Positions 16,851 through 64,000 of a DNA stretch of 64,000 bases are shown one piece after another (within the stretch, counting starts at the first letter, position 1; each line of letters opens with the position of its first letter). The stretch lies in contig NZ_JAQZAM010000005.1 in the NCBI RefSeq assembly GCF_028737215.1, forward strand, positions 124,001-188,000, written 5' to 3'. The notes beneath the pieces were generated by a model, which saw nothing but the letters and a program-made list of their open reading frames with translations, ran no database searches and had not been told where the DNA came from. Both the position numbers and the translations under genes were made by a program. Source of the stretch: Actinomycetospora chibensis (lineage in GTDB: Bacteria > Actinomycetota > Actinomycetes > Mycobacteriales > Pseudonocardiaceae).

Positions 16851-16852
16851 CC

Positions 16853-18060: not shown

Positions 18061-18127
18061 CCGGTGCGTGGCCTGCGTCGGGTGTGTGGACTGCGTCGAC
18101 TGCGTGGGGTGTGTCGGCTGCGTCGGC
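18029..18127. repeat. 9-bp tandem repeat, 11 units
   Basis: Eleven units of TGCGTSGGC-like sequence (TGCGTGGCC, TGCGTCGGG, TGTGTGGAC and so on) follow the 18-bp array after about 33 bases. In the forward frame each unit encodes Cys-Val-x; in reverse it gives Thr/Gln/Pro triplets. Having two different tandem arrays side by side is unusual. Confidence 0.8.
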
Positions 18128-18178
18128 CTCCGGGGCGCCGTCGGGCAGCGGAACGTCCACGCCTGACGGGCCCCGGAC

Positions 18179-19756: not shown

Positions 19757-19792
19757 CGACCACCTCGGGGTAGCGCTGTGCGGACGGACAGG

Positions 19793-19808
19793 CGAACGAT
19801 CGTTCGGT
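19793..19808. promoter_or_regulatory. Operator-like palindrome, copy 1 (ligase/TetR gap)
   Basis: CGAACGATCGTTCGGT contains a perfect 14-base palindrome (19793-19806). It matches the site at 21562 at 14 of 16 positions (CGAACGAWCRTTCGGT). It lies between the acyl-CoA ligase and the TetR regulator, nearer the ligase. Confidence 0.65.
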
Positions 19809-19974
19809 CGGGCGGGACGGTAGCAGCGAGCCACCCCACCCGACCAGGACGAGGATGCGGGTTTCCTGACGTCTGACGCCAGCGTGGCCGCAGGGCTTGC
19901 ACGGCCGGCCGTGCACCGACCGGCTGCGGAGCGCCGCACTGAGGTCCCCCGCCCGGGGCCGTAGATTGCTCCCC

Positions 19975-20637: not shown

Positions 20638-20662
20638 GGTCCGCCACATTAGGTTGGGCAGC

Positions 20663-20884
20663 GTGCCGCTGGACTTCTCTGAGCAGCCCGAGACCGGCCT
20701 CGTCGCCGTCACGCTGACCGACGAGGACGGCGCCGTGCTGCAGAGCCGGGTGGTGGCGGCCGACGAGATCGCGCGCATCGCCGAGCGCGCCCGGGCCGCC
20801 GTGGAGCGCAGCGAGCGCACGGGGGAGCCCGGCCTCTACGTCACGCTCGACGAGCTCATCGACGGGACGTCAGGTCCCGCTTGA
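20663..20884 (+). CDS. Small acidic protein, function unknown
   Basis: 73 residues from GTG 20663 (TTG 20654 is an alternative). VPLDFSEQPETGLVAVTL then DEIARIAERARAAVERSERT suggest a beta-hairpin followed by a helix, with many Asp/Glu. The ordinary composition argues for a real gene. It follows the TetR gene by 25 bases on the same strand and overlaps the end of the converging GNAT gene by 29 bases. No family recognised. Confidence 0.5.
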   Translation: MPLDFSEQPETGLVAVTLTDEDGAVLQSRVVAADEIARIAERARAAVERSERTGEPGLYVTLDELIDGTSGPA

Positions 20885-21359
20885 ACCCGACGTGCGACGC
20901 CGTGAACCCGAGGCGTTCGTAGAAGCGGTGCGCGCCGGTCCGTGACACGTCGCTGGTGAGCTGGACCAGCCCGCACCCCCGCCGCCCGGCCTCCGCCACG
21001 GCCCACTCCACGAGCGCCGCCCCGTACCCGCGACCCTGCCGGGCGTCGCTGACGTGCACCGCCTCGAGCTGCGCGCGCCGCGTCCCACGCCGCCCGAGGT
21101 TCGGCAGCACCGAGAGCTGCAGCGTCCCGACCGTCGTGCCGTCGGCCTCGTCGAGGCAGACGAGCAGGTGCGCGGGGTCGGCGTCGATCTCCGCGAAGGC
21201 GGCCTCGTAGGGCGCGAGGTCGTCGACCGCGTCGCCCCGGCCCGCGCTCACCGGGTCGGCGGCGAGGAGCGCGACCAGCGCGGGCAGGTCGTCGGCCCGC
21301 GCCGGGCGCACCGTCAACGTCCCGTCGGCCAGCGTCGCGAGCGCGTCCATACGGCCCAT
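20856..21359 (-). CDS. GNAT-family N-acetyltransferase
   Basis: 167 residues from ATG 21359 (ATG 21350 is equally possible). GNAT signature: [20 protein letters not shown] at the N-terminus, [20 protein letters not shown] (acetyl-CoA binding Q/RxxGxG/A, about 100-118) and [20 protein letters not shown] at the end. It transfers an acetyl group from acetyl-CoA to an amine; the LGF-x-x-x-H-x-G-F-K pattern is common in small-molecule or antibiotic-type acetyltransferases, but the substrate is unknown. The last 29 bases overlap a small forward gene. Confidence 0.85.
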
Positions 21360-21376
21360 GATCCCGGGCCGACGCA

Positions 21377-21498
21377 GCGAAGGACGCCCTCGCTGCCCCC
21401 AGCGCACTCGAGGCGTCCCTCGCACCAGGAGACGCGCCGGTGCGACGTCGAGCGAGGGACGCCCTCGCCGCCCCCAGGGCACTCGGGGTGACCCTCGC
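21377..21498. repeat. Two tandem 47-bp GCGAGGGACGCC-type repeats
   Basis: Unit A (21377-21423) and unit B (21452-21498) are each 47 bp, about 85 percent identical by eye, separated by 28 bp. Each unit starts GCGARGGACGCCCTCGC and ends CCCTCGC, so each can fold on itself and the two can pair with each other. The sequence is related to the hairpin at 6695. It sits between a GNAT gene and the paaA promoter. Confidence 0.75.
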
Positions 21499-21561
21499 TC
21501 CACCCGACCGGACCCCCCACCACCGCTTTACAGCGCGCTCGCGGTGCGTCACCATCACAAC

Positions 21562-21577
21562 CGAACGAACATTCGGT
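21562..21577 (+). promoter_or_regulatory. Operator-like site, copy 2 (paaA leader)
   Basis: CGAACGAACATTCGGT lies 18 bases before the paaA start codon and next to its GGAGG site. It shares 14 of 16 positions with the palindrome at 19793 and keeps the outer arms (CGAA...TTCG). A repressor bound here would block transcription or its start. Confidence 0.65.
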
Positions 21578-21594
21578 ACGGAGGTGGCTCACCG

Positions 21595-22563
21595 ATGACG
21601 GTGACCGAGGACCAGGGCCCTGACGTCGCCGCGCTCGAGGCGGACTTCGACCGGACGGTCGCGGCCGAGGGCCGGGTGGAGCCGCGCGACTGGATGCCCG
21701 AGGGATACCGGAAGACGCTGATCCGCCAGATCGCCCAGCACGCGCACTCCGAGATCATCGGCATGCAGCCCGAGGGCAACTGGATCCTGCGCGCCCCCAG
21801 CCTGCGACGGAAGGCCATCCTGCTGGCCAAGGTCCAGGACGAGGCCGGCCACGGGCTCTACCTCTACTCGGCCACCGAGACGCTCGGGGTCGATCGCGGT
21901 GAGCTCACCGAGAAGCTCATCGACTCGAAGCAGAAGTACTCGTCGATCTTCAACTACCCGACGCTGACGTTCGCCGACATCGGCGTCATCGGGTGGCTCG
22001 TGGACGGCGCCGCGATCGTCAACCAGGTCCCGCTCTGCCGGTCGAGCTACGGGCCCTACGCGCGGGCGATGGTGCGCATCTGCAAGGAGGAGTCGTTCCA
22101 CCAGCGCCAGGGCTTCGAGCTCCTGCGGGCGCTGATGGCCGGCACCGACGCGCAGCGCGAGATGGTGCAGGACGCCGTCGACCGCTGGTGGTGGCCGTCG
22201 CTGATGATGTTCGGTCCCGCCGACGGCGACTCGCCCAACACCCAGCAGTCGATGGCCTGGCGGATCAAGCGCCACACCAACGACGAGCTGCGCCAGCGCT
22301 ACGTGGACATGACGGTCCCGCAGGCCGAGGCGCTGGGCGTGACGCTGCCCGACCCCGAGCTGCGCTGGAACGAGGAGCGCGAGGCCCACGACTTCGGCGA
22401 CATCGACTGGGACGAGTTCATGCAGGTGGTCAAGGGTGCGGGGCCGTGCAACGCCCAGCGCCTCGCCAACCGCCGCGCCGCCCACGAGAACGGCCAGTGG
22501 GTCCGGGATGCGGCCACCGCCTACGCCGCGAAGCAGGCCGTGAAGAAGGTGACCGCGGCATGA
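21595..22563 (+). CDS. paaA: 1,2-Phenylacetyl-CoA epoxidase, catalytic subunit A
   Basis: 322 residues, the usual size for PaaA. It is the di-iron catalytic subunit that epoxidises the ring of phenylacetyl-CoA. Iron-ligand motifs of the ferritin-like bundle are visible: [14 protein letters not shown] (E-x-x-H, about 80) and [18 protein letters not shown] (E-x-x-H, about 165). Other PaaA hallmarks are [20 protein letters not shown] and [20 protein letters not shown] 21595 follows GGAGGTGG. It is the first gene of a seven-gene operon and overlaps paaB by four bases (ATGA). Confidence 0.96.
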
Positions 22564-22904
22564 GCATGGCCGACGACACCACCGCGCACGTCGAGGGCGA
22601 ACCGCGCTTCGACGGCACCCCGAAGGCCGTCTGGCCCCTCTACGAGGTGTTCGTGCGCGGCAAGCGCGGGCTGAACCACGTGCACGTCGGCTCGCTGCAC
22701 GCGCCCGACGACACGATGGCGCTGCACAACGCCCGCAACCTCTACACGCGGCGCAACGAGGGCGTGAGCATCTGGGTCGTCCGCGGTGACGCGATCACGG
22801 CGTCGAGCCCGGACGAGAAGGACCCGTTCTTCGCGCCCTCCGGGGACAAGGTCTACCGCCACCCCACGTTCTACGACATCCCCGACAACGTCCCCCACCT
22901 CTGA
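22560..22904 (+). CDS. paaB: 1,2-Phenylacetyl-CoA epoxidase, subunit B
   Basis: 114 residues. PaaB is a small structural subunit of the epoxidase complex needed for assembly or electron delivery. The family pattern [20 protein letters not shown] and [11 protein letters not shown]-like [20 protein letters not shown] is clear. It is slightly longer than the E. coli protein because of an acidic N-terminal extension of about 20 residues. The start overlaps paaA (ATGA) and its stop overlaps the paaC start by one base, so the three subunits are translated together. Confidence 0.95.
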
Positions 22905-23824
22905 TGGACCACACCGACCCGCACGACGAGAACGTCTACGACGCCCTGGCGACGGCCGACGAGGACGGGCGCTGGGCGTTCGGCACCGGCTTCGACGCCG
23001 GCGACGCCGAGATCACCGCGCCGTCGCCCGAGGGCGTCGACCGGGCCGACCTCGCGACCTACTGCCTCATGCTCGCCGACGACGCGCTGATCGCGTCACA
23101 GCGCCTCGCGGGCTGGACGACGAAGGCCCCGGAGCTCGAGGAGGAGGTCGCGCTCGCGAACATCGCGCTCGACCTGCTCGGCCAGGCGCGGGTGCTGCTC
23201 TCGCGCGCCGGGCACCTCGGCGCCGCCGAGCCGTACCGCGTCGGTCCGCAGGACGACGAGGACGTGCTCACCTACTTCCGCGACGACCGCGCGTTCCGCA
23301 ATGTCACGCTCGCCGAGGCCGACCTCGGCGACTTCGGCCGTACCGTCGCCTGGGTCCTGGTGTTCTCCGCGTGGCGCCTGGCGCTCATGCAGCGGCTCAC
23401 CGGCTCGCGCGACCCGGTGCTCGCCGCCGTCGCCGGCAAGGCCGTCAAGGAGCTGACCTACCACCGCGACTACGCCGCGCAGTGGGTGCTGCGCCTCGGC
23501 GACGGGACGGAGCTCTCGCACGCCCGGATGCAGGCCGGCCTGGACGGCGTGTGGCCCCACGTCGAGGAGCTGTTCCTGGCCCACGACGTCGAGCGCCGCC
23601 TCGTCGAGGCCGGCGTCGCCGTCGACCCGGCGGAGCTGCGGGGCGACGTCGACGCGGTCGTCGCGCAGGTCCTGCCCGCCGCGACGCTGACCCGCCCCGA
23701 GACCCCGGCGGTCGGCCTCGTCGGCGGTCGCGGGGGCCGCGATGGCGTGCACACCGAGGCCCTTGGCGGCGTCCTCGCCCTCATGCAGTCGCTCGCCCGC
23801 GCGCACCCGGAGGCGACGTGGTGA
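22904..23824 (+). CDS. paaC: 1,2-Phenylacetyl-CoA epoxidase, subunit C
   Basis: 306 residues. PaaC is the structural partner of PaaA in the epoxidase core and has the same ferritin-like fold with degenerate metal sites. Recognised by TYCLMLADDALIASQRLAGW, EVALANIALDLLGQARVLLS and LAAVAGKAVKELTYHRDYAA. It is about 55 residues longer than the E. coli subunit, with an acidic N-terminal extension of about 45 residues and a loop near 265. Start by one-base overlap with paaB; the stop overlaps the paaD start. Confidence 0.94.
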   Translation: MDHTDPHDENVYDALATADEDGRWAFGTGFDAGDAEITAPSPEGVDRADLATYCLMLADDALIASQRLAGWTTKAPELEEEVALANIALDLLGQARVLLSRAGHLGAAEPYRVGPQDDEDVLTYFRDDRAFRNVTLAEADLGDFGRTVAWVLVFSAWRLALMQRLTGSRDPVLAAVAGKAVKELTYHRDYAAQWVLRLGDGTELSHARMQAGLDGVWPHVEELFLAHDVERRLVEAGVAVDPAELRGDVDAVVAQVLPAATLTRPETPAVGLVGGRGGRDGVHTEALGGVLALMQSLARAHPEATW

Positions 23825-24327
23825 CGGCCCTGGTCGATGCTCGCGAGGCCGCCGAGCGCGTCGTCGACCCCGAGATGCCGATGCTCACGCTCGCCGACCT
23901 CGGCGTCCTGCGCGGCGTCGAGACCGCCGGCGACGGCACCGTGGTCGTCACCCTCACCCCGACCTACTCCGGCTGCCCGGCGCTCGAGGCGATGCGCGAC
24001 GACCTGCGCGCCGCCCTGCAGGACGCCGGGTACGACGCGGTCGAGGTGCGCACCACCTTCAGCCCGCCGTGGTCCACCGACTGGATCTCCGACGAGGGCC
24101 GCCGCAAGCTCGCGGAGGCCGGCGTCGCCCCGCCCCACAGGATCGGGCCGAAGGCCGCGGGCGCCCCCATCCCGCTGACGCTGGCCCCGCCGTCGCAGAC
24201 GGTCCCGTGCCCGCAGTGCGGCGCGGCCGACACCGAGGAGGTGTCGCGGTTCGGGCCGACGGCCTGCACCGCGCTGCGTCGCTGTCGCTCCTGCGCCGAG
24301 CCGTTCGAGCACGTCAAGGAGATCTGA
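23821..24327 (+). CDS. paaD: Phenylacetate pathway protein PaaD (MIP18/DUF59 family)
   Basis: 168 residues. The N-terminal DUF59 domain (VDPEMPMLTLADLGVLRGVE, then LTPTYSGCPALEAMRDDLRA) is of the iron-sulfur assembly type. The C-terminus has a zinc-ribbon-like set of cysteines (CPQCGA near 130 and CRSCAEPF near 158). PaaD is needed for a functional epoxidase, probably for maturation of iron-sulfur or di-iron sites. GTG 23821 overlaps the paaC stop (GTGA); GTG 23818 is also possible. The stop overlaps the paaE start by one base. Confidence 0.94.
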   Translation: MTALVDAREAAERVVDPEMPMLTLADLGVLRGVETAGDGTVVVTLTPTYSGCPALEAMRDDLRAALQDAGYDAVEVRTTFSPPWSTDWISDEGRRKLAEAGVAPPHRIGPKAAGAPIPLTLAPPSQTVPCPQCGAADTEEVSRFGPTACTALRRCRSCAEPFEHVKEI

Positions 24328-25424
24328 TGAGCGCCCCCACCACGGAGCGCGTCGCCCCCCGTGCGGCGGGCTTCCACACCCTGCGGGTCGCCGACGTCGA
24401 GCGGCTCTGCGACGACGCCGTCGCCGTCACCTTCGACGTCCCCGACGCCCTCGGTGACGACTTCGCGTTCCGCGCCGGCCAGTACCTGACACTGCGCCTG
24501 GTCACCGAGGCCGGCGAGGAGCGTCGCTCCTACTCGATCTGCGCGCCCGAGGGCACCGCGCCGCGGATCGGGGTGCGCCGCGTCGACACGGGACTGTTCT
24601 CCACCTGGCTGGTCGACCGGCTCGCTCCCGGCGACGAGATCGAGGTCGGGCCGCCGCAGGGCCGCTTCTCCCCCGACGTCACCGCGGGCGAGCACCACGT
24701 CCTGGTCGCCGCGGGCTCGGGCATCACGCCGGTGCTCTCGATCGCCGCGACGGTGCTCGCCGCGCACGCCGACACCCACGTCACCCTGCTCTACGGCAAC
24801 CGCCGCTCGGACACCGTGATGTTCGGCGAGGACCTCGCCGACCTCAAGGACCGCTACGGGCCCCGCCTGCAGCTGGTGCACGTGCTCTCGCGCGAGCCCA
24901 CCGCCGCGGACCTGTTCAACGGCCGTCTCGACGCCGACCGCCTGCGCACGCTGGTCGGCGCGCTCGTGCCGGTCGGCGAGGTCGCGCACTGGTGGCTGTG
25001 CGGGCCCCTCGGGATGGTCGAGGCGGCGACCGAGGTGATCGGGTCGTTCGACGTGCCCCGGCAGCGCGTCCACCGCGAGCTGTTCTACGTCGACGAGCCG
25101 CCGCCCGAGGTGCACCGCAGCGAGGACGATGCCGTCGACGACGACGGGGGCGCCACCGTGACGGTGGTGCTCAACGGGCGCGCGAGCGTCCTGACGCTGC
25201 CGCGCACCGAGCCGGTGCTCGACGCCGCGCAGAAGGTGCGCTCGGACCTGCCGTTCGCCTGCAAGGGCGGGGTGTGCGGGACCTGCCGGGCCCACGTGAG
25301 CGCGGGTGAGGTGCTGATGCGTCGCAACTTCGCCCTCGAGCCCGAGGAGGTCGACGCCGGGTTCGTGCTGACCTGCCAGGCCCTGCCAGTCTCCGACCAA
25401 GTCACCGTCGACTACGACGTCTAG
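24327..25424 (+). CDS. paaE: 1,2-Phenylacetyl-CoA epoxidase reductase, subunit E
   Basis: 365 residues. Ferredoxin-NADP reductase fold first: FAD-binding RSYSICAPEG (about 70), NAD(P)-binding VAAGSGITPVLSIAATVL (about 130) and WWLCGPLGMVEAA (about 222). Then a plant-type [2Fe-2S] domain with CKGGVCGTC near 312-320 and a fourth Cys in VLTCQALP near 350. It passes electrons from NADPH to PaaA. An acidic linker of about 25 residues (EDDAVDDDGG) joins the two halves. It is co-translated with paaD. Confidence 0.95.
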   Translation: MSAPTTERVAPRAAGFHTLRVADVERLCDDAVAVTFDVPDALGDDFAFRAGQYLTLRLVTEAGEERRSYSICAPEGTAPRIGVRRVDTGLFSTWLVDRLAPGDEIEVGPPQGRFSPDVTAGEHHVLVAAGSGITPVLSIAATVLAAHADTHVTLLYGNRRSDTVMFGEDLADLKDRYGPRLQLVHVLSREPTAADLFNGRLDADRLRTLVGALVPVGEVAHWWLCGPLGMVEAATEVIGSFDVPRQRVHRELFYVDEPPPEVHRSEDDAVDDDGGATVTVVLNGRASVLTLPRTEPVLDAAQKVRSDLPFACKGGVCGTCRAHVSAGEVLMRRNFALEPEEVDAGFVLTCQALPVSDQVTVDYDV

Positions 25425-55288: not shown

Positions 55289-56746
55289 TCAGGACGTCGG
55301 CCGGTGCTGGTAGCGACCGGTGGGCGCGCCCTCCACCTTCCCGTCGGCCCAGATGCGCTCGCCGCGCAGGAACGTGGCGTCGACCGTCGCGCCGATCTCC
55401 AGGCCCCGGAACGGCGAGTACTCCTGCGTCGACTCCGAGCCCGCGGGGTCGACGGTCCACGACGTGTCCGGGTCGACGAGCACGACGTCGGCGTCGAAGC
55501 CCGGCGCGAGGTCGCCCTTGCTGCCCAGCCCGAAGCGCTGTGCGGGGTTCCACGAGGTCAGCGCGGCCACGGCCGAGAGCGGCAGGCCGCGCTTGAGACC
55601 CTCGCCCACCAGTCCGGCCAACAGGTACTCGGTGCCGCCGAAGCCCGACTTGGCCGCGAAGACGTCCGCGGGGTCGTCGCCGAACTTCGTCGCCTCCTTG
55701 CAGCACGCGTGGTCCGAGACGACCCAGGAGACGTCGCCGTCGAGCACGTGGCGCCAGAGGGCCTCGACGTCCTCCCGCGGGCGCAGCGGCGGGTTGACCT
55801 TGCCGCCGATCCCGTCGGCGGTGGAGACGTCGGCCAGCAGGTGGCCGATCGTCACCTCCCGGCGGAAGTCGACGTGCGGGAACGTGCCCGCCATCAGCAG
55901 GGCCGCCTCGAGCGCCTTGGCCGACGACAGGTGCAGCAGGTTGATCGTCGGCAGCCCGGTCTCGTGCGCGAGGTACGACGCGATGGTGACGGCCAGGCCC
56001 TCGGAGTGCGGCGGCCGGGACTCGCTGTAGGCCTCCAGGCCGGTGAGGCGCCCCTCCTGCTCCACCATGCGCGTGTAGGCGGTCATGATCTCCGCGGTCT
56101 CGCAGTGCAGCGAGAGCGAGATGCGGTCGGCGATGTCGGGGCGCTCCTCGCGCACGCGCTGGATGCCGCGCATGACGAACTCGAAGTGCGCGATGTCGTA
56201 GCGCTCGCCCTCGGGAATCATGAGGAAGTCGTTCTGGTCGTTCGACCGCCCGTGCAGGCCGTGGCCGCCGTAGAACATGAAGATCTTGAACGACGTCACC
56301 CCGTGGTCGTCGACCAGCGAGGGGATCTCGTCGATGTGCGAGGCCTGCATCGGCGCGAGATGGAACGCGTAGTCGACGTACGACCGGCCCTCGGACGCCG
56401 CCAGGACCTCGGGGAACAGGTCGGCGTAGTCGCCGCCCTTGTTCAGGTAGTACTGCCCGGAGCGCATGTAGGTCAGCGAGGTGGTCACGCCGCCCTGCGC
56501 GCAGGCGCGGCTCTCGGTCTCGGTGTCCTCGGACAGCGGGTTGTAGATGCCCCAGTGCTGGTGGGCGTCGACCACACCGGGGAAGGCCAGCCGGCCGCGG
56601 CCCTCCTCGACCCGCGCCGCGTCGGTGCCGAGGTCCGGCGCGACCGCGGTGATGCGGCCGCCGTCGACGGCGATGTCGGCGTGCGTCACGTCCTCGACGC
56701 CGGGCCGGACGACGCGGACGTCGCGGATGATCAGGTCGTGGCTCAC
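55289..56746 (-). CDS. Cyclic amidohydrolase (hydantoinase/dihydropyrimidinase superfamily)
   Basis: 485 residues. Metal-site residues of the amidohydrolase fold are intact: HxH in VDAHQHWGIYNPL (about 60), the carboxylated Lys in VTSFKIFMFYGGHG (about 155), His in SLSLHCET (about 207) and in INLLHLSSAKALE (about 265), and Asp in VVSDHACCKEATKF (about 338). This group opens cyclic amides (hydantoins, dihydropyrimidines, cyclic ureides). GTG 56746 overlaps the FAD gene stop (GTGA), so it is the second gene of a two-gene unit facing away from the IclR gene. The exact ring substrate is unknown. Confidence 0.9.
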   Translation of the reverse strand: MSHDLIIRDVRVVRPGVEDVTHADIAVDGGRITAVAPDLGTDAARVEEGRGRLAFPGVVDAHQHWGIYNPLSEDTETESRACAQGGVTTSLTYMRSGQYYLNKGGDYADLFPEVLAASEGRSYVDYAFHLAPMQASHIDEIPSLVDDHGVTSFKIFMFYGGHGLHGRSNDQNDFLMIPEGERYDIAHFEFVMRGIQRVREERPDIADRISLSLHCETAEIMTAYTRMVEQEGRLTGLEAYSESRPPHSEGLAVTIASYLAHETGLPTINLLHLSSAKALEAALLMAGTFPHVDFRREVTIGHLLADVSTADGIGGKVNPPLRPREDVEALWRHVLDGDVSWVVSDHACCKEATKFGDDPADVFAAKSGFGGTEYLLAGLVGEGLKRGLPLSAVAALTSWNPAQRFGLGSKGDLAPGFDADVVLVDPDTSWTVDPAGSESTQEYSPFRGLEIGATVDATFLRGERIWADGKVEGAPTGRYQHRPTS

Positions 56747-58131
56747 GGGTGGACCTCCTGGAGGGCGGGCGCGGGGCGGACCCCGGCGAGGTGGTCGGCG
56801 GCGAGGACGGCGAGGCCGAGGGCGGGCAGCAGCCCGTTGCCGGCGAGGTAGCCGGCGGCGCCGTGGCCGGACATCCCGACCGCGGCCCCGCCGGAGGCGT
56901 AGACGCCCGCGACGGGGCGGCCGGCGGGGTCGAGCAGCCGCGCGTGCTCGTCGACGCGCAGGCCGCCCTGGGTGTGGAACAGCGCGGGCACGATCTCGAC
57001 GGCGGCGAGCGGCGGCGTCAGCGGCGCCTCGACCGCGGTGCGCCCGACGCGGTCGGCCGTCTGCTCGCCGCGCGCCACCGCCGCGGCGTCGGCGAGCTCG
57101 CCGGCGAGCACCTCGGGCGCGACGCCGAGGCGCGCGGCCAGCTCCTCGGCGTCGGCGGCCCAGCGCAGCGCGCCGGACCCCGCGACGTCGCGGTAGTCGC
57201 CGAAGGCCTGCGACAGGGCGTCGATGCGCGCGTCGAGCACCACCCAGCCGCACGCGCCGGGGCGGGCGGCCAGCAGGGCGGCGAACTCCGAGTAGCCGAC
57301 GGTCTCGTCGGCGAAGCGCCGCCCGTCGGCGTCCACGACGACGCCGCCGTGCATCACCGTCGTCCACGTGACCAGCGTGCGGGCCGCCGCCGAGAGCGCC
57401 GCGTGTCCCTGGTACGCGTCGAGGTAGCCGTCGGCACCGCCGACCGACCGACCGAGGCGCAGTCCGTCGCCGCGGGCGAACTCGCTGCCGTGGTAGGTCG
57501 CGTCGGCGATCTCGCCGACGTGCTGCGCGACGAGCCCGGGGTCGGCGCCGTAGCCGTTGGTGGCCAGCAGCACCGCCCGCGCGGTGACGTCCTCGCGCCC
57601 GCCGTGCGGGTCCTCGACGGTGACGCGCACGCCGTCGTCGTCGACCTCCAGCCCGACCGCGCGGGCGGGACACAGGAGATCGATCCGGTCGGACGCGGTG
57701 ACCGCGTCGAGCAGACCCCGCAGCAGCGACGACCCGTGCCGGCCGGGCACCGAGTGCACCCGGCGGGCCGAGTGGCCGGGGTAGTCCATGTCCACGGGGA
57801 GCTCGATCGGCAGGCCGACCCCGTCGGCGAGCCACTCGACCAGCTCGGCGCTCACGGTGGTCAGGGCGCGGGCCACCGCCGGGTCGGCGGCGCCGGCGGT
57901 CTTCGCGTCGACGTCGGCGAGGAAACGCGCGGGCGAGTCGTCGATCCCCGCGGCGCGCTGGAAGCGGGTGCCGGCGCCGGGGACCATCGCCGTCGACATC
58001 GCGGTGTTGTTGCCCCGCCGGAAGTGCTCGTCGGCCTCGACCACGACGACGTCGAGGCCGTGCTCCGCCGCGCGCAGGGCGCCGGCGAGCCCGCCGCCCG
58101 CGCCGACGACCACGAGGTCGGTGTCCACCAC
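56743..58131 (-). CDS. FAD-dependent oxidoreductase (fumarate reductase/ketosteroid dehydrogenase-like)
   Basis: 462 residues. FAD site: LVVVGAGGGLAGALRAAEHG (about 6-25) with Glu in VVVEADEH; GNNTAMSTAMVPGAG (about 40-55) and the C-terminal FAD region GVYASGGAAVGMSGHGAAGY. The FAD-binding 2 family member most likely reduces or oxidises a C=C bond of a carboxylic acid or ring. It is first in the reverse-strand unit, with one IclR-type site 14 bases upstream of its start. GTG 58131 (or 58128) begins directly at the FAD motif. Confidence 0.87.
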   Translation of the reverse strand: MVDTDLVVVGAGGGLAGALRAAEHGLDVVVVEADEHFRRGNNTAMSTAMVPGAGTRFQRAAGIDDSPARFLADVDAKTAGAADPAVARALTTVSAELVEWLADGVGLPIELPVDMDYPGHSARRVHSVPGRHGSSLLRGLLDAVTASDRIDLLCPARAVGLEVDDDGVRVTVEDPHGGREDVTARAVLLATNGYGADPGLVAQHVGEIADATYHGSEFARGDGLRLGRSVGGADGYLDAYQGHAALSAAARTLVTWTTVMHGGVVVDADGRRFADETVGYSEFAALLAARPGACGWVVLDARIDALSQAFGDYRDVAGSGALRWAADAEELAARLGVAPEVLAGELADAAAVARGEQTADRVGRTAVEAPLTPPLAAVEIVPALFHTQGGLRVDEHARLLDPAGRPVAGVYASGGAAVGMSGHGAAGYLAGNGLLPALGLAVLAADHLAGVRPAPALQEVHP

Positions 58132-58144
58132 CGGCGCTCACCTC

Positions 58145-58161
58145 GTTCCGTTCAGAGAAAC
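58145..58161. promoter_or_regulatory. IclR-type operator, site 1
   Basis: GTTCC-N7-GAAAC, one mismatch from the perfect form GTTCC-N7-GGAAC. It sits 14 bases upstream of the FAD gene start, in the divergent gap with the IclR gene. Confidence 0.6.
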
Positions 58162-58262
58162 AGTCTCCCGAAGCCCTCGCTTCGCATGACAGCAGCTCAG
58201 CACGACGACGGCAAGAGCAGCACGTCGCGCTTGACATCCGGCGCGGAACGCAGCGACGCTAC

Positions 58263-58279
58263 GTTCCGTCCAACGGTAC
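58263..58279. promoter_or_regulatory. IclR-type operator, site 2
   Basis: GTTCC-N7-GGTAC, one mismatch from the perfect form, 14 bases upstream of the IclR start at 58293 and overlapping its ribosome site region. The flanking CGT/ACG extends the symmetry. Confidence 0.6.
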
Positions 58280-58292
58280 GGAGGATGGCGAC

Positions 58293-59102
58293 ATGGCCGA
58301 GCCCGGAGGCGGGACGGAGTCGACCTCGCGCGTGGCGGACGTGCTGCTGCTGTTCGTGGAGGGGCCGTCGACGCTCGGGGTCACGCGCATCGCGCGGGAG
58401 CTCGGGCTGAGCAAGGCGGTGGTGCACCGCATCCTGCAGTCGCTGGCCGGCCGCGACATGGTCGTCCTCGACCCCGTCAGCCGGGAGTACCGGCTGGGCC
58501 CGTCCGTCGCCGCGCTCGGGGCCCGGGCGCTGCGCGAGTCGGACCTGCGCTCGGCCGCCCTGCCGTTGCTGCGCCGGCTGCGTGACGAGACCCGCGAGAC
58601 GGCCACCCTGAGCACACCGGTGCCGCACGGCCGCGTCTACCTCGATCAGGTCGTGGGCCTCCACGAGATCAAGATGACCGTCGAGCTGGGCCGACGGTTC
58701 CCGCTGCACGCGGGCAGCTCCGGCAAGTGCATGCTCGCCCACCTCGACCCGGAGCAGCGCGACGAGGTGCTCGCCGCGGGGCTCGAGTCGCTCACGCCGC
58801 ACACCCCGATCGACCCGGTGGCCCTGCGCTCCGAACTCGACGCCATCGCCGCCCGTGGCTGGGCCGTCTCGGCCGGCGAGCGCCAGGCCGACGCCGGATC
58901 GGTGGCCGCACCCGTCTTCGGTGTCGGCGGCGACGTCCTCGGGGCGATCTCGGTGTGCGGCCCGCGCTACCGGATGACCGACGCCGTCGCGACCGAGCTC
59001 GGGCCCCGGGTCGTGGCCGTCGCCGGCCAGATCTCCCGGCGCCTCGGCGGCGATCCGGGCCGCACCCCGGTCAGCGGAGCAGGAAGGACGAATGCCGGAT
59101 GA
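58293..59102 (+). CDS. IclR-family regulator of the catabolic cluster
   Basis: 269 residues; ATG 58293 after GGAGG. N-terminal winged HTH: VADVLLLFVEGPSTLGVTRI, ARELGLSKAVVHRILQSLAG (about 33-52). The GAF-like effector domain (about 85-255) has PVPHGRVYLDQVVG, LGRRFPLHAGSSGKCMLAHL and APVFGVGGDVLGAISVCGP. IclR proteins bind aromatic or carboxylic effectors and typically control catabolic genes. Two operator-like sites lie in its divergent promoter, two more precede the MFS gene. Stop overlaps the CoA-transferase start (ATGA). Confidence 0.9.
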   Translation: MAEPGGGTESTSRVADVLLLFVEGPSTLGVTRIARELGLSKAVVHRILQSLAGRDMVVLDPVSREYRLGPSVAALGARALRESDLRSAALPLLRRLRDETRETATLSTPVPHGRVYLDQVVGLHEIKMTVELGRRFPLHAGSSGKCMLAHLDPEQRDEVLAAGLESLTPHTPIDPVALRSELDAIAARGWAVSAGERQADAGSVAAPVFGVGGDVLGAISVCGPRYRMTDAVATELGPRVVAVAGQISRRLGGDPGRTPVSGAGRTNAG

Positions 59103-60298
59103 CTGATGCCCCTCCGACAGGCGCTCTCCAGGGACTCAAGGTCCTCGACGTCGCCACCCTGTTCGCCGGGCCGCTCGCCGCGACGATGCTGGGCGACCAC
59201 GGGGCCGACGTGATCAAGATCGAGCACCCGCGCGGCGACCCGTCGCGCACCCACGGCGCCCAGCGCGACGGCGTCGGCCTCTGGTGGAAGATGCTCGGCC
59301 GCAACAAGCAGGCCATCACGCTGAACCTCTCGTCCCCGGAGGGGCAGGAGGTCTTCCGCACCCTGGCCGCCGACGCCGACGTGGTGATCGAGAACTTCCG
59401 GCCCGGCACGCTCGAGCGCTGGGGCATCGGCCCGGAGGTGCTGCACGAGGCCAACCCCGGACTCGTGCTCGCGCGGGTCACCGGCTTCGGCCAGTTCGGG
59501 CCGTACTCCTCGCGGCCGGGCTTCGGGACGCTCGCGGAGGCCATGAGCGGCTTCGCCGCCATCACCGGCGAGCCCGACGGGCCCCCGACGCTGCCGCCCT
59601 TCGGCCTCGCCGACGGCGTCGCCGCACTGACCACGGCGTTCGGGATCATGACCGCGCTCCGGGCCCGCGAGCAGACCGGCCGCGGCCAGGTGCTCGACAT
59701 GGCGATCATCGAGCCGCTGCTCACCGTGCTCGGGCCCCAGCTCATCGCCTACGACCAGCTCGGCGAGCTGCAGCCCCGGCACGGCAACCGCTCGTCCAAC
59801 AACGCCCCACGCAACACCTACGAGTGCGCCGACGGCCGCTGGGTCGCGGTGTCCACCAGCGCGCAGTCGATCGCGGAGCGCGTGATGCGGCTGGTGGGAC
59901 GGCCGGAACTGATCGACGAGCCGTGGTTCGCCACCGGCGCCCGGCGCGCGCAGCACGCCGACGAGCTCGACGACGCCGTCGGCGCGTGGATCGCCGAGCG
60001 GGACCGCGACGAGGTCGTCGCCGCGTTCGAGAAGGCCGAGGCCGCCGTCGCCCCGATCTACACCGCCGCCGACGTCCTCGCCGACCCGCAGTATGCCGCG
60101 CTCGGCAGCGTCGTCACCGTCGACGACGACGAGCTCGGCCCGATCCGGTTACAGAACGTGCCGTTCCGGCTCTCCGAGACCCCGGGCCGCGTCCGGACCG
60201 CCGGCCCGCGCCTCGGCGAGCACACCGCGGAGGTGCTCGCCCGCCACGGGATCGACGCCGACCGGCTGGCGGAACTGCGGGCGGCGGGGGCGCTGTGA
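59099..60298 (+). CDS. Class III (CaiB/BaiF) CoA-transferase
   Basis: 399 residues. Family motifs: GLKVLDVATLFAGPLAATML (about 12), DVIKIEHPRGDPSRTHGAQR, the NKQAITLNLSSPEGQEVFRT (about 68) and the active-site Asp region DVVIENFRPGTLERWGIGPE (about 93-112, the key Asp likely in GPEVL... or in GLADGVAALTTAFG near 178). It moves CoA to a carboxylic acid. With a CitE-type lyase next door it probably activates a malate-like acid. Co-translated with IclR and CitE. Confidence 0.9.
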   Translation: MTDAPPTGALQGLKVLDVATLFAGPLAATMLGDHGADVIKIEHPRGDPSRTHGAQRDGVGLWWKMLGRNKQAITLNLSSPEGQEVFRTLAADADVVIENFRPGTLERWGIGPEVLHEANPGLVLARVTGFGQFGPYSSRPGFGTLAEAMSGFAAITGEPDGPPTLPPFGLADGVAALTTAFGIMTALRAREQTGRGQVLDMAIIEPLLTVLGPQLIAYDQLGELQPRHGNRSSNNAPRNTYECADGRWVAVSTSAQSIAERVMRLVGRPELIDEPWFATGARRAQHADELDDAVGAWIAERDRDEVVAAFEKAEAAVAPIYTAADVLADPQYAALGSVVTVDDDELGPIRLQNVPFRLSETPGRVRTAGPRLGEHTAEVLARHGIDADRLAELRAAGAL

Positions 60299-61161
60299 CG
60301 GGCCCGGGGCGCGCGCGGAGCTGGCTCTACGTCCCCGCGCACCGCCCGGAGCTTCTGGACAAGGCCCTGTCCGGGCCCGCCGACGCCGTGGTGCTCGACC
60401 TCGAGGACGCCGTGCCCGCCGGGGCGAAGGAGTCCGCGCGCGACGCCGCGGTGCGGGCCGCGAGCCTGCCGCGGACCAAGCCCCTGTGGGTGCGGGTCAA
60501 CGCCGTCGGCACCTCGTGGTCGGCCGACGACCTCGCCGCCCTGACCGGCACCGACCTCGACGGCGTGCGCGTGCCCAAGGCCGGCGACCCCGAGACGGTC
60601 GCGGAGCTCGCGCAGCGCCTCGGGCTGCCGCTGCACCTGCTGCTGGAGACCGCCCTCGGTGTCGAGCAGGCCTACGCGCTCGCCACGGCGCACCCGTCGG
60701 TGGTCGCGGTCTCGCTGGGCGAGGCCGACCTCGCCGCGGACCTCGGTGTCCGGCGCCCGGACGCCCTGGCCTGGGCGCGCCAGCGTGTCGTCGTCGCGTG
60801 CCGGGCCGCTGGGATCGCCGCGCCGATCACCAGCGTCTGGACCGACCTCGCCGATCCCGGTGGGCTCGAGCGCGACAGCCGCGAGGCCCGCGACCAGGGG
60901 TTCTACGGCCGCTCGGTGATCCACCCGAAGCAGGTCGAGGCCGTCCACCGGGCGTTCACCCCGAGCCTCGACGAGGTCACCGACGCCCGGGCACTGCTCG
61001 GCTCGCTCACCGACGCCACCGGCCGCGGGGAGAGCGCGTGGGTCGACGCGCGGGGCCGCTTCGTCGACCCCGCCGTCGTCGCCGGCGCCCACCGCGTGCT
61101 CCACCAGGCCGACACCCTCCCCGACACCCTCCCCGACACCCTCACTGAGGAGGACCGATGA
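60295..61161 (+). CDS. HpcH/HpaI (CitE-type) CoA-ester lyase
   Basis: 288 residues. CitE/MCL fold: RSWLYVPAHRPELLDKALSG (about 8), DAVVLDLEDAVPAGAKESAR (metal Asp/Glu, about 32-50), VRVNAVGTSW (Arg), LHLLLETALGVEQAYALATA (Glu, about 112) and VSLGEADLAADLGV (GExD motif, about 140). It cleaves a 3-hydroxyacyl-CoA such as citramalyl- or malyl-CoA. The C-terminal tail carries a 12-bp tandem repeat (CCCGACACCCTC; TLPDTLPDTLPDTL). GTG 60295 overlaps the upstream stop (GTGA). Stop overlaps the cyclase start. Confidence 0.9.
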   Translation: MTGPGRARSWLYVPAHRPELLDKALSGPADAVVLDLEDAVPAGAKESARDAAVRAASLPRTKPLWVRVNAVGTSWSADDLAALTGTDLDGVRVPKAGDPETVAELAQRLGLPLHLLLETALGVEQAYALATAHPSVVAVSLGEADLAADLGVRRPDALAWARQRVVVACRAAGIAAPITSVWTDLADPGGLERDSREARDQGFYGRSVIHPKQVEAVHRAFTPSLDEVTDARALLGSLTDATGRGESAWVDARGRFVDPAVVAGAHRVLHQADTLPDTLPDTLTEEDR

Positions 61162-61985
61162 CGACCGCCACGGGCACGCGTGCCCTGATCGACGCCGTCA
61201 CCGCGGGCACCCGCACCGTGGAGCTGGGGCAGCCGCTGTTCACGGGCATGCCGTGCTCGCCGAACCACCCCGGCTTCCGGATGACGCTCATCCGGCGCCA
61301 CGGCGACATGGTCCGCCCCGACGGCGGCTCCGCGTCCAACGAGATCGTCGTCACCGGCGGGCACGTCGGCACCCACGTGGACGCGCTCTCCCACGTCAGC
61401 CAGGACGGCTGCCTGCACGGCGGGATCGACGCCGAGGCCGCCCAGCGGGGCGGTCGCCACAGCGAGCACGGCGCCGAGCACATCCCGGCGATGATCACCC
61501 GCGGCGTGCTGCTCGACATCCCCGCCGTGCGCGGGGTCGACGCGCTCGGCCCCGGGGAGGGCGTCACCGCCGACGACCTGGCCGCGGCCGCCCACCGCGC
61601 CGGCGCGGAGCCCGGTCCGGGTGACGCCGCGCTGGTGCGCACCGGGTGGGCGCGCCGGTTCGAGGACGCGGCGTCCTATCTCGGGCACGACACCGGCGTC
61701 CCGGGTGTCACCGAGGACGGCGCCCGGTGGCTCGCCGAGCGCCGGGTGGTGGCCGCCGGCGCCGACACCACCGCGTTCGAGCAGATCCCGGCCGGCGACG
61801 GGCACCGCGTGCTGCCCGTGCACCGGATCCTGCTCGTCGAGCACGGCATCCACATCGTCGAGCACCTCGCGCTCGAGGAGGCCGCGGCGCAGGGGCTCAC
61901 CGAGTTCCTCTTCGTCCTGACCCCGCTTCGCATCGTCGGCGGCACCGGGTCGCCGGTGCGTCCCGTCGCGGTGGTCGCGGCATGA
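61158..61985 (+). CDS. Cyclase-family (kynurenine formamidase-like) metal hydrolase
   Basis: 275 residues. The metal-binding motif HxGTHxDxxxH is present: GGHVGTHVDALSHV (about 67-80). ELGQPLFTGMPCSPNHPGF near the N-terminus and VEHLALEEAAAQGLTEFLFV near the C-terminus fit the family. Members hydrolyse formyl- or cyclic amide bonds, and include isatin hydrolase and kynurenine formamidase. In this cluster it may open a second amide or imide bond. ATG 61158 overlaps the CitE stop (ATGA). Confidence 0.9.
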   Translation: MTTATGTRALIDAVTAGTRTVELGQPLFTGMPCSPNHPGFRMTLIRRHGDMVRPDGGSASNEIVVTGGHVGTHVDALSHVSQDGCLHGGIDAEAAQRGGRHSEHGAEHIPAMITRGVLLDIPAVRGVDALGPGEGVTADDLAAAAHRAGAEPGPGDAALVRTGWARRFEDAASYLGHDTGVPGVTEDGARWLAERRVVAAGADTTAFEQIPAGDGHRVLPVHRILLVEHGIHIVEHLALEEAAAQGLTEFLFVLTPLRIVGGTGSPVRPVAVVAA

Positions 61986-63403
61986 GCCCGGCACCGGCCC
62001 TCACCCCCGCCCAGGAGTTCGCCGCCTTCGCCGCCCGCACCGCCGTGCACGGGGCGCCCGACGCGCTCCGCGACGACCTCGTCGCCCGCACCGCCGACCT
62101 GCTCGGCAACTGCCTCGCCGCGCGCGACGCGGAGCCGGCGCGGGTCGTCGCCGCCGTCGTCGCCGAGTGGGGCGGGGCGGGCGCCGCGACGTCGCTCGCC
62201 GACGGGCGCCGGCTCCCGGCCCCGTCGGCGGCGCTGGTCAACGGCACGCTGGCCCACAGCCTCGACTTCGACGACACCCACCTGCCGTCGGTGCTGCACC
62301 CGTCGGCGGCCGTCCTGCCCGCGGCGCTCGCCGCCGCCGAGGCCGTCGGCGCGTCCGGCACCGCGTACCTCGACGCCGCGGCCGTGGGCGTCGAGCTGAC
62401 CTGCCGGCTCGGGATGGCGGGCTACGACGAGGAGCTGGGCAACTCGGTCTTCTTCGAGCACGGCCAGCACGCGACCGCGATCTGCGGGGCCGTCGGGGCG
62501 GCGGTGGCCGCCGGGATGCTGCGGGGTCTGGAGGCCGAGGGACTGACCTCGGCGATCGGCATCGCGGCGAGCACCGGCGCCGGCATCATCGAGGCCAACC
62601 GCACCGGCGGCACCGTGAAGCGGGTGCACTGCGGGTGGGCCGCCCACGCGGGCGTCGCCGCCGCCGACCTCGCGCGGCACGGCCTCACCGGCCCGCCGAC
62701 CGTGCTCGAGGGCCGGTTCGGGTTCCTGCGCGCCTTCTGCGGCGAGCGCACCCACGTCGAGCGCGTCACCGACGATCTCGGAGAGCACTGGGAGACCCTG
62801 CGTGTGTTCACCAAGCCCTATCCCTGCAACCACTTCACCCACGCGGGCATCGACGCGGCGCTGCGGATGCGGTCCGACGGCATCACCGCCGAGCGGGTCG
62901 TCGAGCTGACGCTCGGCGCGCCCGCCCCCGTCCTGCGCACGATCGCCGAGCCCGCCGAGGAGAAGGCGGCGCCGCGGTCCGGGTACCACGCGGCCTTCAG
63001 CGGTCCCTACACCGTGGCCGCCGCGCTGCTCGGCGGCGGTGGGCTCGGCCTCTCGCACGACGACTTCACCGACACCGCCGCGGCCGACCCGGCCCGGCTC
63101 GCGCTCGCCGGGCGCGTGCGCTGCGTGGCCGACGAGGAATCGACCGCGATCTTCCCGCACCAGTTCCCCGCCGTGCTCACCGCGCGCCTCGACTCCGGCG
63201 AGTCGGTGACGGAGCGGATCGTCGCCAACCGGGGCGGTCCCGACCGGCCGCTGGGCGACGACGAGGTCGCCGAGAAGTTCCGCACGAACGCCGTGCGCTC
63301 GGTGCCGGAGCAGGACGTCCCCGCCGTCGTCGACGCCGTGCGGGAACTGCGCGGCGGTCGTCGCGTCACCGATCTCATGAACCGGACGGGCGCGCTTCTC
63401 TGA
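61982..63403 (+). CDS. MmgE/PrpD family protein
   Basis: 473 residues. Family features: VNGTLAHSLDFDDTHLPSVL (about 84-103), HPSAAVLPAALAAAEAVG, GNSVFFEHGQHATAICGAVG, STGAGIIEANRTGGTVKRVH (about 195-214) and KPYPCNHFTHAGIDAALRMR. The family includes 2-methylcitrate dehydratase, cis-aconitate decarboxylase and iminodisuccinate/epimerase-type enzymes, all acting on branched di- or tricarboxylates. The substrate here is unknown; it acts on a free acid, so before CoA transfer. Starts by ATGA overlap with the cyclase gene. Confidence 0.91.
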   Translation: MSPAPALTPAQEFAAFAARTAVHGAPDALRDDLVARTADLLGNCLAARDAEPARVVAAVVAEWGGAGAATSLADGRRLPAPSAALVNGTLAHSLDFDDTHLPSVLHPSAAVLPAALAAAEAVGASGTAYLDAAAVGVELTCRLGMAGYDEELGNSVFFEHGQHATAICGAVGAAVAAGMLRGLEAEGLTSAIGIAASTGAGIIEANRTGGTVKRVHCGWAAHAGVAAADLARHGLTGPPTVLEGRFGFLRAFCGERTHVERVTDDLGEHWETLRVFTKPYPCNHFTHAGIDAALRMRSDGITAERVVELTLGAPAPVLRTIAEPAEEKAAPRSGYHAAFSGPYTVAAALLGGGGLGLSHDDFTDTAAADPARLALAGRVRCVADEESTAIFPHQFPAVLTARLDSGESVTERIVANRGGPDRPLGDDEVAEKFRTNAVRSVPEQDVPAVVDAVRELRGGRRVTDLMNRTGALL

Positions 63404-63408
63404 GCATT

Positions 63409-63425
63409 GTTCCCACCAGAGGAAC
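63409..63425 (+). promoter_or_regulatory. IclR-type operator, site 3
   Basis: GTTCC-N7-GGAAC, perfect arms, six bases after the MmgE/PrpD stop. It begins the leader of the MFS transporter gene. Confidence 0.65.
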
Positions 63426-63516
63426 AGTGCGCGAAACGGTTCTCTCGACCATGAGCTGGCCTCTTGACCAGCAACATCGGTCTTGGGAACCTCGATGGAC
63501 GAGCAATGACGAGAAC

Positions 63517-63533
63517 GTTCCCTTCGGCGGAAC
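63517..63533 (+). promoter_or_regulatory. IclR-type operator, site 4
   Basis: GTTCC-N7-GGAAC, perfect arms extended by GAAC on the left and GTTC on the right (63513-63538). It lies 40 bases before the MFS start and 108 bases (about ten helical turns) from site 3, so looping between the two sites is possible. Confidence 0.65.
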
Positions 63534-63572
63534 AGTTCTTCGGTGCCGGATTCCCGACCGACAGGTGCGCTG

Positions 63573-64000
63573 ATGCAGACACGATTCCGGTGGGCGACGA
63601 TCGTTCTGATCGTCGTCCTCATCGTCATCAACTACATCGACCGGTCGGCGGTCTCGTACGCGGTGCAGCCGCTGCAGCAGGAATTCGGGATCTCCACCGC
63701 GCAGTACGGCATCATCTCGAGCGCCTTCGCGATCGGGTACATGGTCTTCGCGTTCCTGTCCGGCCCCCTCGTCGACAGGTTCGGGCCACGGAAGGTCCTG
63801 CTCGTCGCCATCACGATCTTCTCGATCGCCACGGCGCTCGTCCCGCTCGCGGGCGGCTTCGTCGGCCTCCTGCTGATCCGGATCATCCTCGGCGCCGGCG
63901 AGGCGCCCGCCTTCCCGGCGGCCACCCGCACGGTGAGCCGCTGGCTGCCCCGGGCCGAGCGCGGCTTCGCGCTGGCGCTCATCGGCGGCGTCGCGGTCTC
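63573..64000 (+). CDS. MFS transporter, anion:cation symporter-like, N-terminal part (runs off the window)
   Basis: The first 142 codons are inside the window. ATG 63573 begins MQTRFRWATIVLIVVLIVIN followed by YIDRSAVSYAVQPLQQEFGI, the pattern of the ACS family (hexuronate, tartrate, phthalate transporters). GYMVFAFLSGPLVDRFGPRK (motif A, about 62-81) and RIILGAGEAPAFPAATRTVS (about 107-126) agree. It probably imports the acid or cyclic substrate degraded by the upstream enzymes. Two perfect IclR-type sites lie in its leader. The leader is less GC-rich than the flanking genes. Confidence 0.88.
   Translation, partial: MQTRFRWATIVLIVVLIVINYIDRSAVSYAVQPLQQEFGISTAQYGIISSAFAIGYMVFAFLSGPLVDRFGPRKVLLVAITIFSIATALVPLAGGFVGLLLIRIILGAGEAPAFPAATRTVSRWLPRAERGFALALIGGVAV

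Follow-up and report, generated by a model that had tools for sequence, protein, structure and literature searches.

Introduction

Utilization of hydantoins, allantoin and pyrimidines combines a hydantoinase or allantoinase with a carbamoyl or ureido hydrolase, and we know of no place for an MmgE/PrpD protein, a CoA-transferase or a CitE-type lyase in these pathways. The nicotinate fermentation of Eubacterium barkeri includes an enamidase, a dimethylmaleate hydratase and a dimethylmalate lyase, and the genetics of aerobic cyclic-imide breakdown is, to our knowledge, poorly known. Here, we analyzed eight genes at the end of a 64,000-nucleotide stretch of the 6.18-Mb genome of Actinomycetospora chibensis (hereafter the window; contig C51:124001-188000). 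They encode a cyclic amidohydrolase (AH), an FAD oxidoreductase (the FAD enzyme), an IclR-family regulator, a class III CoA-transferase (CoAT), a CitE-type lyase (CitE), a cyclase-family hydrolase (CYC), an MmgE/PrpD protein (MmgE) and a transporter of the MFS family. We consider it quite possible, although short of probable, that these genes form an IclR-controlled regulon, with two divergent units and the transporter, for taking up and breaking down a small cyclic amide; the simplest candidate is a substituted cyclic imide with a five-membered ring, of the succinimide or maleimide type.

As in hydantoin, allantoin and pyrimidine utilization, a binuclear metal amidohydrolase of the carbamylated-lysine type would be followed by a second amide hydrolase, and a racemase-family gene in about half of the related clusters also recalls these pathways; in contrast, the eight proteins include no known carbamoylase family. 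The proposed route resembles that of E. barkeri in that a cyclic amidohydrolase would open a nitrogen-containing ring, an alkylmaleate would be hydrated and an alkylmalate cleaved, whereas an MmgE/PrpD protein and CoA-dependent cleavage would replace the aconitase-type hydratase and free-acid lyase. The nicotinate pathway of Aspergillus nidulans contains the cyclic imidase HxnM and the amide hydrolase HxnN and, as proposed here, proceeds from a cyclic imide through half-amide hydrolysis to a hydroxy-dicarboxylate; however, HxnM resembles enzymes of the peptidoglycan-deacetylase/PuuE type rather than carbamylated-lysine amidohydrolases, and the available part of that account describes no CoA-dependent cleavage (PMC9304392). 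The itaconate-methylsuccinate cluster of Pseudomonas and Cupriavidus (ict, ich, ccl, mcd, msi), as described in the available parts of PMC12290011 and PMC9875883, likewise groups a CoA-transferase, a CitE-type lyase and an MmgE/PrpD protein, and employs C-C cleavage of a citramalyl-type CoA ester. The present cluster differs in containing neither MaoC hydratase nor acyl-CoA dehydrogenase, in the addition of AH, CYC and the FAD enzyme, and in a Phe at the epimerase Tyr column of MmgE. It appears to be a catabolic regulon that would end in CoA-dependent cleavage of a citramalyl-type ester.

The initial annotation of the window knew of no described pathway with this gene set, and we likewise found none in open-access PMC full text, among the matches listed. 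MmgE appeared together with hydantoinase in one paper and together with dihydroorotase in none in open-access PMC full text, and no title there, among the matches listed, concerned a bacterial hematinic acid or maleimide pathway. Two candidates were rejected: the riboflavin/lumichrome catabolic enzymes named in the available part of PMC12746152 do not fit the set, and the succinamopine Ti-plasmid, within the available part of PMC6733357, combines mmgE and hydantoinase A/B genes in one region that holds no CoA-transferase/CitE set. Every enzyme family considered here is known; their combination, and presumably also the reactions of MmgE and the FAD enzyme, are probably new to the open-access PMC literature. 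If our proposal is correct, it would add a catabolic pathway spread over the phylum, a likely new reaction for the large, mostly uncharacterized MmgE/PrpD family, and a compact set of seemingly co-regulated genes with which to trace the cyclic amides eaten by soil bacteria; the enzymes could also serve as useful imidases.

Conservation of the gene set in Actinobacteria

We scanned a collection of species genomes for MmgE with six peptide patterns, obtained 162 relatives, kept the best 80 loci and tabulated the 58 with full flanks (at least 21.2 kb), leaving out 22 shorter ones. Families were counted as present at identity thresholds of our own choice (AH, 55%; FAD enzyme, 45%; IclR, 40%; CoAT, 50%; CitE, 34%; CYC, 48%; MmgE, 50%; MFS, 60%; accessory families f6, 45%, and f11, 40%). 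MmgE was present in all 58 loci by construction and was accompanied by CYC (58), CitE (53), AH (52), CoAT (52), IclR (41), the FAD enzyme (26) and the MFS transporter (16). Accessory families were listed from an ad hoc gene calling that missed many genes; they include a gene of the Asp/Glu/hydantoin racemase family (f11, 29/58) and a second MmgE/PrpD gene (f6, 21/58). In the window's own genome, f11 had no match in a search run without a positive control, and f6 had only a 32% match, on another contig.

The FAD-AH unit is divergent from IclR-CoAT-CitE-CYC-MmgE in the window and in Pseudonocardia, Saccharopolyspora and Nocardia, and the order is IclR-CoAT-CYC-MmgE-AH-CitE in Micromonospora and Nocardioides; the content is therefore kept and the order is not. 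A search with AH matched 20 of 395 non-self genomes (E <= 1e-90), and in 15 of these 20 loci a gene for the FAD enzyme, CoAT, CYC, MmgE, IclR or MFS lay within ~1.5 kb, or in 17 if the accessory second MmgE is counted (adding L141 and L143); no family of the set was found within that distance at L129, L135 or the contig-end locus L136. Across the 396 genomes, own genome included, 11 had an AH of at least 63% identity and 10 others one of 43-46%. In this second clade (L136-L145), five of the ten loci hold an FAD enzyme nearer to a Variovorax homologue described below. A CitE search matched 82 non-self genomes, and CYC was present in all 19 best non-self loci fetched. Pairwise protein distances among seven cluster proteins were correlated (Pearson 0.69-0.95, Spearman 0.40-0.94; none of 500 permutations reached the value in each case), a correlation that also reflects common host descent.

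The initial annotation had suggested a search for the gene neighborhood in other genomes; these families are found side by side in many of them, and the gene set is therefore more than a chance assembly. The idea of one catabolic unit, with importer, ring-opening hydrolase, redox enzyme, MmgE/PrpD protein, CoA-transferase and CitE lyase, was supported; the idea of an isolated island was not, as the module is conserved among Actinobacteria and has partial equivalents in Proteobacteria.

Operator-like palindromes shared by the two operons

The specific palindromic form KTTCCNNTNNGNGRAAC occurred at two places in the genome, both within the cluster, and its reversed control had zero matches. The looser form KTTCCNNNNNNNGRAAC matched the forward strand of the genome ten times, including three matches inside the cluster. 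A palindrome near GTTCCGCTNAGCGGAAC was found in the FAD/iclR and MmgE/MFS gaps of most relatives of the window type (16/18 and 17/19, respectively, with the window counted in both). It was found in 0/22 CYC/MmgE joints, 0/21 CoAT/CitE joints and 0/4 gaps in which the transporter lies behind AH in the same operon, and dinucleotide shuffles gave 0.09 and 0.07 on average. Because the pattern was drawn from the window and its relatives before counting, and the relatives are mutually non-independent, its sole tests are the control stretches, the shuffles and the scan of the genome. Since both gaps share the palindrome, the two operons and the transporter likely belong to one regulon, and the IclR protein would most simply be the binder. 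Further GTTCC-N7-GGAAC palindromes lie outside the cluster in the same genome (C11:471282, C53:224960, C55:157219) and are possibly operators of other regulators.

Residues retained and lost in the encoded enzymes

We counted residues in rows of tblastn matches spanning at least 60% of the query; the CoAT, CitE and CYC sets each include one self row (L011). The best PDB sequence matches of AH were E. coli allantoinase (3e74/8hfd), which also occupied Foldseek ranks 1-6 for its structure model (mean pLDDT 88.8). AH carries the HxH, Lys, His, His and Asp ligands of cyclic amidohydrolases with the carbamylated-lysine dihydroorotase/hydantoinase fold: among rows of at least 50% identity, H62 and H64 were retained in 69/69 and K154, H214, H272 and D345 in 70/70, and all six were retained in 7/7 rows below 50%. 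We take the lysine to be the position carbamylated in allantoinase and hydantoinase. AH scored 224.9 bits with the curated allantoinase AllB model TIGR03178, below its cut-off of 357.85. The PDB relatives of CYC include isatin hydrolase and kynurenine formamidase, and its H-x3-H-x-D-x3-H motif (H69, H73, D75, H79) was retained in 101/101 rows. Both hydrolases had initially been expected to open amide rings; of the two, AH alone has the ring-opening metal center examined here, and CYC is more likely a hydrolase of the opened amide. Pfam and NCBIfam scans found no carbamoylase family among the eight proteins, for which CYC is a possible functional substitute.

The FAD enzyme has 1qo8 and the urocanate reductase 6t85 as PDB sequence relatives, and Foldseek placed flavocytochrome c3 (Fcc3) and urocanate reductase on top, with ketosteroid and cyclohexanone dehydrogenases, which desaturate neutral carbonyl compounds, at ranks 24-35. 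Arg402 and Arg544 of fumarate reductase are substrate and proton residues that bind the dicarboxylate; the numbering of Arg544 and His504 is what we take to be that of Fcc3. In relatives of at least 50% identity, Arg402 is replaced by Tyr280 (33/33), which is the change engineered in PDB 1jrz according to its title, and Arg544 by Tyr428 (31/31); His365 (33/33) and His504 (31/31) are kept, Glu378 is replaced by Thr or Ala, and Arg381 by Met or Val. Below 50% identity, where rows are mostly paralogues, Tyr stands at the Arg402 column in 3/5 and at the Arg544 column in 2/3, and two Variovorax homologues share both tyrosines. The replaced arginines rule out a fumarate reductase role, and on this evidence the protein is no ordinary fumarate or succinate enzyme. 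The redox step had been placed after ring opening. Because the FAD gene is predicted to share a transcript with AH and the dicarboxylate-binding arginines are lost, we revised this order: the redox step more likely comes first, a placement that also follows from a fold near flavocytochrome c3 and urocanate reductase and, at lower rank, the ketosteroid and cyclohexanone dehydrogenases.

The PDB relatives of MmgE are B. subtilis MmgE ('IRG1'), IDS-epimerase and cis-aconitate decarboxylase, and its closest named matches are from Actinomycetospora lutea (88% identity) and A. succinea (87%). In 83/83 rows of at least 50% identity, H106, H163, K213 and K278 were retained, and Phe158 stood at the column of IDS-epimerase Tyr145, a residue with a second acid/base role. 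Below 50% identity (mostly paralogues, n = 25), this column held Leu (15), His (5), Gln (2), Pro (2) or Thr (1) and never Tyr. According to the available part of PMC12290011, the His and Lys positions are the catalytic set common to MmgE/PrpD enzymes, and Tyr148 is the second acid/base of methylsuccinate isomerase (Msi); we matched the His/Lys set by way of the IDS-epimerase alignment, which does not contain Msi, and infer that Tyr148 falls in the Tyr145 column. MmgE thus keeps the His/Lys set of these enzymes and has lost their Tyr, which disfavors an epimerase role; (de)hydration is therefore likelier than epimerization. With the curated PrpD model (2-methylcitrate dehydratase, high-GC Gram-positive), MmgE scored 55.8 bits against a cut-off of 950.

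CoAT retained D200 in 82/82 rows of at least 50% identity, and its best NCBIfam model was succinate--glutarate CoA-transferase (251.5 bits; cut-off 750). CitE retained R67 and D145 in 88/88 rows and E118 in 87/88, with RipC (Ccl) as best model (152 bits; cut-off 375). The best model for the transporter was TIGR00893 (253 bits; cut-off 395).

Counterparts in Proteobacteria and on plasmids

AH matched 40 plasmid records. We opened six Proteobacterial ones, and five of these neighborhoods contained comparable amidohydrolase-isochorismatase sets, with isochorismatase in 5/5, aconitase in two, MmgE and an FAD enzyme in two, and an isocitrate-lyase/methylisocitrate-lyase-type gene in three. Antarctobacter and Shinella WSC3-e have an isocitrate-lyase/PEP-mutase-family gene, GntR, aconitase AcnA, AH and isochorismatase; the Hydrogenophaga region has CobW, AH, isochorismatase and a methylisocitrate-lyase gene; and Variovorax SRS16 and PBL-E5 (L116, L120) have Liv-type ABC genes, MmgE, FAD, MmgE, CobW, AH and isochorismatase. 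Relative to the window, the Variovorax FAD enzyme is 39% and one MmgE 34% identical, and the other MmgE is 34% identical to f6. We read these sets as the same logic with parts swapped: a ring would be opened, an amide hydrolyzed and a 1,4-diacid (de)hydrated before cleavage. The Variovorax plasmid run adjoins a dmpGH meta-cleavage region.

By annotation, every one of the eight window-set families is present on plasmid pDND3A of Rhodococcus gordoniae (L111). Adjoining them, at positions 14311-24822, are genes annotated as an amidase and a hydantoinase A/B-oxoprolinase pair, followed by GntR, MaoC, a further CoA-transferase, a further MmgE/PrpD protein and an acyl-CoA dehydrogenase. Regions L112, L113 and L114 bore no annotation.

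Proposed pathway

We propose that the substrate is taken up by the MFS carrier and that the FAD enzyme desaturates (or reduces) the still-neutral ring, which the metal-dependent AH would then open. CYC would hydrolyze the remaining amide, and the substituted 1,4-dicarboxylate so formed could be an alkylmaleate, for example; MmgE/PrpD would hydrate the free substituted maleate or fumarate to a hydroxy acid of the citramalate or malate type. The class III transferase would attach CoA to this acid, and the CitE lyase would cleave the CoA ester to an acyl-CoA and a 2-oxo acid. A five-membered imide is favored because it is the simplest ring giving a 1,4-diacid, the backbone common to known MmgE/PrpD substrates in the available part of PMC12290011. 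Hydration of the free acid fits a set without MaoC, because P. putida equipped with the Pseudomonas cluster required no genes other than ict and ccl for (S)-citramalate, according to the part of PMC9875883 available to us.

Several observations weigh against this proposal. Among the matches listed, none of the eight proteins scored as high as the cut-off of an NCBIfam model (the best 25 of 51 for AH, of 29 for the FAD enzyme and of 71 for MFS). The FAD enzyme is absent from 32/58 full-flank loci, and in 6/58 both AH and the FAD enzyme are absent with CYC, MmgE, CoAT and CitE present, so that the substrate of CYC may be something other than the AH product; as the CitE threshold was only 34% identity, the 53 may include different members of that large family. 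Residues 239-242 and 419-431 of the FAD structure model, around His243 (Fcc3 His365) and Tyr428, have pLDDT below 50, and the desaturase assignment is therefore made on sequence alone; the Variovorax FAD enzyme has Tyr at the His243 position also. The AH relatives in Proteobacteria share only 32-35% identity with the AH of the window, the two Variovorax regions lack a lyase, the Hydrogenophaga region lacks aconitase and MmgE, and Shinella HZN7 has an isochorismatase nearby in an otherwise different neighborhood. Because the Hydrogenophaga lyase scored above the PrpB cut-off and the Antarctobacter aconitase above the AcnA cut-off (the other two lyases being below that of PrpB), these genes may simply encode the usual PrpB and AcnA and happen to adjoin an amidohydrolase unrelated to them. 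The isochorismatases scored weakly, three of four best with ureidoacrylate (RutB) or biuret hydrolases; the fourth matched PRK11440 best, followed by RutB, and none of their matches was a maleamate amidohydrolase model. These scores and the racemase-family gene in 29/58 loci fit cyclic ureides no less well than imides. Finally, the evidence consists of gene content, conserved linkage, shared operator-like sites and catalytic residues kept or lost, all read from sequence; from it we infer every chemical step and its place in the order, the binding of the sites by IclR, and the class of substrate.

A wider extension, which we regard as rather improbable, is that the locus represents a general, previously undescribed bacterial route for natural cyclic imides, such as alkylmaleimides from tetrapyrrole oxidation. 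The neutral ring would first be desaturated and then opened and de-amidated, the free alkylmaleate would be hydrated by MmgE/PrpD, and cleavage would have interchangeable endings, on the CoA ester in Actinobacteria (CoA-transferase and CitE) or on the free acid in Proteobacteria (isocitrate-lyase/PEP-mutase family).

Alternative substrates

A cyclic ureide, either a 5-substituted hydantoin or a dihydropyrimidine, is a serious rival to the imide, doubtful as we judge it to be. AH would yield an N-carbamoyl compound, CYC (or an isochorismatase encoded elsewhere) would strip off its carbamoyl moiety, and MmgE, CoA-transferase and CitE would process the amino or oxo dicarboxylate thus formed. By sequence as well as by fold, AH comes closest to allantoinase and hydantoinase, which weighs for a ureide and against an imide, and the racemase family, the RutB- or biuret-like isochorismatase scores and the amidase and hydantoinase A/B-oxoprolinase genes beside the full set on pDND3A all agree with a ureide. 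However, an opened hydantoin alone gives no 1,4-dicarboxylate, the backbone of known MmgE substrates, the eight proteins include no carbamoylase family, and the racemase had no match in the genome of the window in the search mentioned above.

The absence of MaoC from the set, noted initially as an argument that this is not the standard itaconate cluster, was upheld: no MaoC hydratase matched among the eight proteins (Pfam), the flanking open reading frames having been read by eye only and the rest of the genome not searched. Nor was an acyl-CoA dehydrogenase found among the eight, and the standard itaconate route is thus disfavored. We also find quite unlikely a variant itaconate/methylsuccinate route in which MmgE would be an isomerase, CoA-transferase and CitE would act as in the Pseudomonas cluster, the FAD enzyme would replace acyl-CoA dehydrogenase, and AH and FAD would be later additions. 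Such a route would explain the three families shared with ict, msi and ccl (available part of PMC12290011), RipC as best model for CitE, and the six loci retaining CYC, MmgE, CoAT and CitE without AH; it would have to accommodate, besides the two missing enzymes, Phe at the epimerase Tyr column in all 83 rows, the loss of the fumarate-reductase arginines from the FAD enzyme and the AH linkage retained in 52/58 loci.

An indole-derived lactam (oxindole-3-acetate or dioxindole-3-acetate), which AH would open to an aminophenyl-succinate or -malate for cleavage by CoA-transferase and CitE to acetyl-CoA and isatinate, the latter a substrate for an isatin-hydrolase-like CYC, is very unlikely: CYC is related to isatin hydrolase and CitE chemistry would, as we reason from auxin chemistry, suit a 2-aryl-malyl-CoA, but the CYC similarity is weak (E 6e-12) and no aromatic-ring gene was among the 11 representative accessory proteins scanned.

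Layout of the locus and neighboring genes

All eight genes named in the initial annotation were present where it had placed them, with every protein above the gathering score of its Pfam family (Table 1). The AH start codon, GTG, was assigned by eye from the printed sequence. Four-base overlaps, which had been described for most joints, were found at five (AH/FAD, IclR/CoAT, CoAT/CitE, CitE/CYC and CYC/MmgE) and not at MFS, which starts at GTG 63543 or, more likely, at ATG 63573, at least 139 bp past MmgE. The MFS gene is complete beyond the window (L009:1044-2357), ending at C51:188857.

Table 1. Genes and operator-like sites of the cluster (window positions)
Feature	Position	Strand	Basis
Cyclic amidohydrolase (AH), proposed ring-opening enzyme	55289..56746	-	Pfam Amidohydro_1
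FAD oxidoreductase, flavocytochrome c/ketosteroid dehydrogenase superfamily, proposed ring desaturase (or reductase)	56743..58131	-	Pfam FAD_binding_2
Palindromic operator-like site GTTCCGTTCAGAGAAAC upstream of FAD gene	58145..58161	.	pattern scan
Degenerate palindrome copy just upstream of iclR	58263..58279	.	by eye; outside scan patterns
IclR-family regulator	58293..59102	+	Pfam IclR_C, HTH_IclR
Class III (CaiB/BaiF) CoA-transferase (CoAT)	59099..60298	+	Pfam CoA_transf_3
CitE-type (HpcH/HpaI) C-C lyase	60295..61161	+	Pfam HpcH_HpaI
CYC, cyclase-family (PF04199) metal hydrolase, proposed amide hydrolase	61158..61985	+	Pfam Cyclase
MmgE/PrpD protein, proposed hydratase/dehydratase of free dicarboxylate	61982..63403	+	Pfam MmgE_PrpD_N/C
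Palindromic operator-like site GTTCCCACCAGAGGAAC in MmgE-MFS gap	63409..63425	.	pattern scan
Palindromic operator-like site GTTCCCTTCGGCGGAAC upstream of transporter	63517..63533	.	pattern scan
MFS transporter, galactonate/anion:cation symporter type by best model	63543..64000, cut at window end	+	Pfam MFS_1

By reading of the sequence, the left flank encodes a LysE-like exporter and the right flank YCII-like and sigma-factor-like genes. Approximately 12 kb to the right of the cluster and outside the window (C51:201089-203860; L009:14590-17360, minus strand), genes for an alpha/beta hydrolase, an isochorismatase-type cysteine hydrolase and a second class III CoA-transferase stand in a row, with families assigned in the same way.

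Among the related loci, L064, L071, L087 and L100 form a group in which a DUF2848 gene (f26) accompanies an Opp-type permease (f25). An arylmalonate-decarboxylase/EutA-like gene (f27) is present in three of these four and also in L091; all three names were taken from L100 only. A small NTF2-like protein (f22) occurs in 8/58 full-flank loci and lies beside AH at L115:7588-8004; it is 44% identical between Antarctobacter and L089.

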